A DNA stretch of 57,120 bases from Lachnospiraceae bacterium (GTDB lineage: Bacteria; Bacillota; Clostridia; Lachnospirales; Lachnospiraceae), in the NCBI GenBank assembly GCA_017465475.1, contig JAFTWC010000032.1:1-57120 (forward strand). Reading direction: 5' to 3'. Of the stretch, positions 31,642 through 31,927 are shown piece by piece. The notes under the pieces are model-generated. The model did no database searches, had not been told where the DNA came from, and saw nothing but the letters and a program-made list of their open reading frames with translations. A program made the translations under genes and the position numbers. Within the stretch, counting starts at the first letter, position 1. Every line of letters begins with the position of its first letter.

Positions 31642-31927
31642 TTGGGTCAATCTATGGAGTATCAGCTTGTCTGACCCAATGATATGTTCTGTTTTGCTAA
31701 TTTCAAAGGGAATTTATTTGTTTGCGAAGAATACCAAACAAGGATTTTCTCAAAGTATCCCAGTGTTTGCTATGTGAGAAAAAAATTTTGCTTTCTTGGG
31801 TTCAAACAGATAAAATGAGCTATTTTGAGAAAAAAACAACCACCGAATCACTATAAAGTACGCTGTTAGTATATTTCAAACGTTCTGATTTGGGTCAAGG
31901 AAGCTTAAATTGTGTTTTCTGGGAAAA
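31642..31927 (+). repeat. Paired-octamer intergenic element, copy 1
   Basis: Four pairs of octamers, each pair separated by 22 bp. A: TTGGGTCA (31642) / TGACCCAA (31672). B: TTTTCTCA (31745) / TGAGAAAA (31775). C: TTGGGTTC (31796) / TGAGAAAA (31826). D: TTGGGTCA (31890) / TGGGAAAA (31920). Only two motif types and their complements are used. The same four pairs with almost the same distances occur inverted at 51449-51734. The stretch is A/T-rich and has no gene. Confidence 0.75.

Follow-up and report, generated by a model that had tools for sequence, protein, structure and literature searches.

The window, the whole 57,120-nucleotide stretch of DNA analysed here, contains two copies of a 286-bp array of paired 8-bp boxes, at 31642-31927 (copy 1, plus strand) and at 51449-51734 (copy 2, minus strand), both of which had been located correctly in an earlier note on this DNA. 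Copy 1 comprises four 38-bp sites at offsets of 0/103/154/248 bp. In particular, site 1 (31642-31679; 0 mismatches to the site pattern) consists of G and G' boxes at 31642-31649 and 31672-31679; site 2, an inner site (31745-31782; 0 mismatches), consists of T' and T boxes at 31745-31752 and 31775-31782; site 3, likewise an inner site (31796-31833; 2 mismatches), consists of a G-like box at 31796-31803 and a T box at 31826-31833; and site 4 (31890-31927; 1 mismatch) consists of G and T boxes at 31890-31897 and 31920-31927. Copy 2 is inverted relative to copy 1 and has offsets of 0/104/156/248 bp when read on the minus strand: site 1 is at 51697-51734 (0 mismatches), inner sites 2 and 3 are at 51593-51630 (1 mismatch) and 51541-51578 (2 mismatches), and site 4 is at 51449-51486. 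The earlier note had described copy 2 as repeating copy 1; the shared four-pair layout stands, with the correction that copy 2 lies in the opposite orientation, and the statement that only two octamers are used fails for copy 2, in which one or both boxes deviate in three of the four sites.

The sites conform to the pattern TTKKSTCA-N22-TGASMMAA. Box G is TTGGGTCA and box T is TGAGAAAA (complement TTTTCTCA); both are variants of one half-site, TTNNNTCA, and each box pair is therefore an imperfect 38-bp palindrome, an array comprising eight half-sites in four inverted pairs with half-site centres 30 bp apart. In some copies, the boxes of site 1 and of site 2 form perfect 8-bp inverted repeats; in common-type sites 3 and 4, complementarity does not extend over the full boxes. 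At the left half of the third site, previously read as a G box, copy 1 has TTGGGTTC; only two of 14 aligned arrays have TTGGGTCA there, and six have NNGGGTAC. With arrays oriented by their inner pair (T/T, then G/T, 51-52 bp apart), the usual site offsets are near 0/103/155/247 in the ten arrays of the window's genome (G000; array labels C#, with C47a and C47b for copies 1 and 2) that have four recognisable sites. Wherever the outer site can be recognised, the left interval measures 103-104 bp, or 92 bp in C45, C35, and G007:C45 (an array of G007, one of nine congeners, G001-G009), and the right interval is 92-94 bp, or 104 bp in C45. The two classes of outer interval thus lie about 11 bp, or about one helical turn, apart, and the earlier proposal that spacing is conserved holds in the sense that intervals differ by about whole helical turns. 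The outer sites vary in their letters (G/G, T/G, or G/T) and keep their place. The spacing is roughly two-fold symmetric, nearly fully so in C35 (92/52/93), and the consensus array ends, TTTTGGGTCA and TGAGAAA, are imperfect inverted copies of each other.

The layout exceeds chance in the window and throughout its genome. In the window, eight sites are present at up to two mismatches, all within the two copies, compared with 0.93 on average and at most 4 in 100 shuffled sequences. In G000 (3.07 Mb, 81 contigs, 88.8% complete), exact sites number 13, compared with one for a backwards-read control pattern, and sites with up to one mismatch number 34, compared with five; at up to two mismatches the excess shrinks (79 versus 53). 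All but one of the 34 sites fall in 14 arrays on 13 contigs, the remaining one, on C69, looking spurious; a whole-genome scan, proposed in the earlier note as a check, thus raises the number of copies from two to 14. Ten of these have four recognisable sites (at most three mismatches each); of the other four, C53 carries a one-base deletion in site 2, C74 retains only the left half of site 4, and site 1 is gone from both C63 and C6. A search for the four-site layout in 18 shuffled 8-kb stretches never gave fewer than 23 mismatches in 64 positions, compared with 2-10 for 13 distinct recognised arrays.

The arrays of G000 are intergenic and occur in both orientations, as judged from the open reading frames, which also place six of the 14 (C10, C35, C47b, C63, C76, and C78) between convergent genes. 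Their neighbours are unrelated (trpS-like, dus, tpi, Clp ATPase, carbohydrate phosphorylase, and arabinofuranosidase genes, among others), C33 lies just upstream of a gene for an HTH-TPR protein, and a search for a shared neighbour gene near the G000 arrays returned only common-looking domain matches, short repeats, and open reading frames of the arrays themselves. When the paralogous arrays are compared in 10-bp bins, mean pairwise identity stays at 0.22-0.30 along the left flanks (0.37 over the last ten bases), rises sharply at the outer left box, and drops again at the outer right one. In the filler, compared without gaps, identity between arrays is 0.42 at the median and 0.67 at most. Because homology is confined between the outer boxes and the neighbours are unrelated, the 286-bp unit is, on this comparison of sequences, one that has been copied to many places, a dispersed repeat family beyond what the earlier note described. 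A small encoded protein was considered and rejected: open reading frames in C10, C33, C47b, and C77 match each other, yet no frame is conserved, the frame from site 1 being open for 87-90 codons in two of 17 arrays (C10 and C33) and stopping within 41 codons in the other 15.

In most copies the filler, which the earlier note had described as diverged, is under constraint too. After masking of the boxes, the AA/TT steps of 14 arrays show a period of 10.2 bp, read off the spectrum rather than preset, with a mean power of 7.81, compared with at most 2.03 in 200 within-block shuffles; for whole arrays the power is 8.01, compared with at most 1.93 in 200 dinucleotide-preserving shuffles, the 14 arrays sharing ancestry and hence not being independent. 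These 14 were drawn from 19 arrays, leaving out C6 and C63, which are without site 1, and C45, C35, and G007:C45; all five were included in a test of the spacer between sites 3 and 4 (31834-31889 in copy 1), and the reduced loci of G007 entered no rhythm test. Thirteen of the 14 arrays rank in the top 2% of 2750 overlapping window stretches; copy 1 is without significant rhythm, its power of 2.44 being reached by 32% of window stretches. The 13 rhythmic arrays have powers of at least 5.51, compared with a median of 1.71 and a maximum of 5.29 in 34 flank stretches, and the summed flank spectra are flat. On average over the 14 arrays, GC steps run in antiphase to AA/TT. The seven filler segments, including the spacer between sites 1 and 2 (31680-31744 in copy 1), where AA/TT is phased over the 14 arrays, have nearly one common phase, and all eight box centres lie about half a turn from the AA/TT peak, with a phase that depends somewhat on the period used (0.39-0.59 turn at 10.25 bp, 0.34-0.61 at 10.2 bp, and 0.28-0.66 at 10.15 bp). 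The arrays with a 92-bp left interval, C45, C35, and G007:C45, peak at 10.2-10.3 bp in unmasked spectra. A period near 10.2 bp is typical of wrapped nucleosomal DNA. REP/BIME, BOX, and ERIC repeats are dispersed, intergenic, and non-coding, as are the arrays; those repeats are defined by sequence and hairpins, whereas the arrays keep spacing and helical phase and leave most of their sequence free.

Place-for-place comparison with G007 reveals remains at the orthologous locus of six of the 14 G000 arrays: a full array for C45 (G007:C45); the inner pair only, sites 2 and 3, for copy 1 (G007:C34); site 4 only for C78 (C8:142100-142137), copy 2 (C16:17486-17523), and C63 (C56:27539-27576); and site 1 plus a last box for C33. 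Over the ten orthologous sites recognised in the six locus pairs, lost sites being uncounted and box conservation being partly ascertained in that the G007 loci were found through their boxes, 152 of 160 box positions are identical, compared with 135 of 220 positions of the 22-bp filler within sites (Fisher p 1e-15). The contrast between conserved boxes and diverged filler, drawn in the earlier note from the two window copies, thus extends between species. Specifically, C45 and G007:C45 keep all four sites, with 62 of 64 box positions but only 40 of 88 filler positions (45%) identical, and their right intervals, 104 and 93 bp, are exactly 11 bp apart. Four intact sites with filler of 45% identity would be hard to explain without constraint in place. 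The reduced loci differ in what their junctions tell. At G007:C8, the counterpart of C78, the left flank directly joins site 4, and the 247 bp between the like boxes of sites 1 and 4 are missing; G007:C16, the counterpart of copy 2, looks like the same type of exact 247-248 bp difference, less clearly; and the junction at G007:C56 is not informative, C63 itself being without site 1. The exact difference at C8, and less clearly at C16, is similar to solo-repeat formation. The interval orthologous to 31625-32008, between a GNAT gene and a rhomboid gene, holds about 1 kb with extra genes in G003 and G005; G007 keeps part of these, and they are absent from G000, which has the array there, and from G004, which retains only a short gap.

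Arrays occur in two of the nine congeners: G006 has two; in G007 there are three arrays with all four sites, a remnant with two sites, and four loci in reduced form. No array was found in the other seven congeners, which have, at up to one mismatch, only scattered single matches at about control level (0-4 versus 1-5). In 135 further relatives, a search restricted to exact sites, which would miss diverged boxes (up to one mismatch was searched in G000 and its nine congeners), gave one site each in 11, and a scan for the four-site layout showed it at none of these loci. A scan of named genomes with the exact inner-pair signature, which, like the scan of viral contigs, may omit the window's own genome, returned 33 stretches, with array context confirmed only in the two array-bearing congeners. 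The named isolates with arrays are RGIG4043 (roe deer caecum) and RGIG5355 (sheep colon), both labelled Lachnospiraceae, with two and four of the stretches, respectively, lying within arrays or, once, within a two-site remnant. For the other 27, no convincing array emerged from a four-site scan (weak scores of 16/64 mismatches for L074 and 20/64 for L058) that also missed the types with a 92-bp left interval or without site 1 (C35, C6, C63, and L071) and the remnant L053; sites were listed around 12 of the 27, and four (L048, L063, L064, and L074) were read. In the genome of L064 (G145), matches are below control level (7 versus 18). In viral contigs, the matches were isolated sites or an unrelated phage repeat, and array C10 as a query gave no match in phages or plasmids. 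One 61-kb viral contig, IMGVR_UViG_3300019124_000008 (L216, L224, L225, and L226), contains several TTGGGTCATCNGGGTCA...TGACCCAA repeats in a different layout. In a two-gene tree, G000 and G007 form successive branches outside G003-G006, with weak inner support (37-76). Because this tree places the array-bearing G000 and G007 outside G003-G006, loss of the arrays in G003, G004, and G005 would be the simplest reading, though not a firm one. The function of the array would be dispensable, since no array was found in three species nested, by this weak tree, among array-bearing ones.

We favour, with confidence that is about evenly balanced, the reading that the array is a dispersed, helically phased wrapping site for a putative oligomeric protein, spread by copying and constrained in place. 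A putative multi-subunit, sequence-specific protein, or a pair of paralogues for the G and T half-sites, would wrap the approximately 286 bp. The phasing suggests how: the eight half-sites, near one face of the helix, would dock HTH-like domains in the major groove; the DNA between boxes would be pre-set to bend, with minor grooves inward at AA/TT; and one superhelical turn of approximately 92 or 103 bp would set each outer site beside the inner ones. The position of the box centres, half a turn from AA/TT, is what would be expected if the major grooves of the boxes and the minor grooves at AA/TT face one core. The earlier preference for binding by a putative protein, at boxes about three helical turns apart, over a structured RNA is supported by the sequences: by the further copies, by boxes that are kept while filler is not, also between species, and by intervals that differ by about whole turns. 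On the simplest history, copying would have spread the unit in the ancestor from which a small clade of Lachnospiraceae descends, and some lineages would later have shortened or lost it; the copies may serve local folding or compaction of the chromosome near gene ends. A bolder form of this reading, which we advance as a doubtful extension, is a sequence-programmed, nucleosome-like particle, scattered over a bacterial chromosome, in which eight half-sites would set the core, approximately 286 bp would be wrapped, and the filler would keep mainly its bending rhythm, the copies acting as folding or boundary points near gene ends.

No binding protein was identified for the arrays. Lrp-family proteins are oligomers with outward HTH domains, proposed DNA wrapping, and phased sites. 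Their known sites, however, are short palindromes at single regulatory regions, whereas those of the arrays are genome-dispersed, 38 bp long, and have 22-bp gaps. RemA is an octameric ring proposed to wrap DNA, and its sites are periodic AT-rich 7-bp repeats with 3-bp gaps and a rhythm near 10 bp, as given in the accessible part of PMC8481266. The rhythm near 10 bp is common to both, and the arrays add fixed, long-spaced boxes, none of which are described for RemA in that part of the source. Wrapping proteins such as LrpC and RemA may be used as a working analogy for the arrays (PMC8481266). As binders, Lrp and RemA themselves are not favoured: their genes, each in single copy, occur irrespective of the arrays, and no link connects them to the boxes. 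Specifically, one PF01037 (Lrp) gene is present in eight of the ten congeneric genomes, including array-free ones, and none was found in G006, which has arrays and is 72% complete; one RemA gene is present in seven of the ten, with and without arrays.

The enzymes of Mu, Tn7, and IS21 also wrap the ends of their elements. The arrays may, as a possible but less probable alternative, be non-autonomous, MITE-like mobile elements, the boxes being terminal and sub-terminal sites at which a transposase or recombinase would wrap its ends, and the 286-bp unit a left and a right end joined, with the enzyme lost or in unassembled sequence. Consistent with this, the ends of the unit coincide with the outer boxes, where homology stops, and form imperfect terminal inverted repeats; copies lie at unrelated places and vary in presence between species; the spacing is roughly two-fold symmetric; and G007:C8, less clearly G007:C16, look like exact losses between like boxes. 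A loose test for flank repeats with free boundary and length is suggestive (16 arrays; 31 versus 14.7 in permutations, reached in 0 of 500), but no direct repeat appears at a fixed boundary, and no combination of boundary and length exceeds permutations in the 15 arrays of that test, which drops G007:C45 as the ortholog of C45; arrays with broken ends (C6, C63, and C74) are outside both tests. Moreover, no array ends were seen around a gene in G000, at its 88.8% completeness, where 33 of 34 sites with up to one mismatch are within arrays; orthologous sites are conserved while filler drifts, unlike in a dead insertion; and no clean empty site could be aligned at C47a, C47b, C33, C10, or C53, the intergenic DNA being too diverged to place ends. 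Mu, Tn7, and IS21 ends and MITEs resemble the arrays in having several spaced end sites, bent or wrapped DNA, and dispersed non-coding copies (for IS21, the accessible parts of PMC10122671 and PMC11208146). They differ in that the arrays are without a transposase found and without a fixed target duplication, and have palindromic sites conserved in place.

A role as operator arrays, through which an accessory transcription regulator would act on neighbouring genes, seems improbable to us. The sites are sequence-specific, bivalent, and intergenic in G000, C33 lies upstream of the HTH-TPR gene, and promoter-like sites around copy 1 number four against 1.5 expected; yet copy 2 has no such excess (one versus 1.3 expected), the neighbouring genes are unrelated, six of the 14 arrays have convergent neighbours, and a regulon would not be expected to repeat one four-site geometry at 14 unrelated places. 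No terminator-like sites were found around the two window copies. A structured RNA, disfavoured already in the earlier note, is very improbable: the perfect inverted repeats at sites 1 and 2 of some copies are set against sites 3 and 4, which are not complementary over their full boxes, none of 23 predicted pairs shows a compensatory change (covariation term +0.21), and no Rfam match was found at the window arrays and eight further loci searched.

The usual view of bacterial architectural proteins is that their binding is loose or confined to short sites. Under the favoured reading of the array as a wrapping site, the DNA appears, at many fixed points of the chromosome, to encode a whole wrapped complex by setting its positions, the helical face, and the bendability. 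Discovery of the protein would open sequence-coded, chromatin-like folding in bacteria to direct testing; should the binder prove to be a transposase, the array would represent an unusually elaborate code for end synapsis, retained after insertion. This type of array was found only in one small clade, and no described element with this layout was found in the literature searched, the coverage of which was limited.

Other elements of the window include an approximately 45-bp hairpin at 51811-51856, beside copy 2, which is itself a dispersed repeat, with matches of 84-93% in G001, G003, G004, G006, G007, and G009 and on G000:C55. Hairpin-like sequences, judged by eye, also adjoin arrays C10, C23, and C6. 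In addition, the window encodes a 6S RNA at 1463-1642 and a Clostridiales-1 RNA at 28270-28451, both above Rfam gathering scores.
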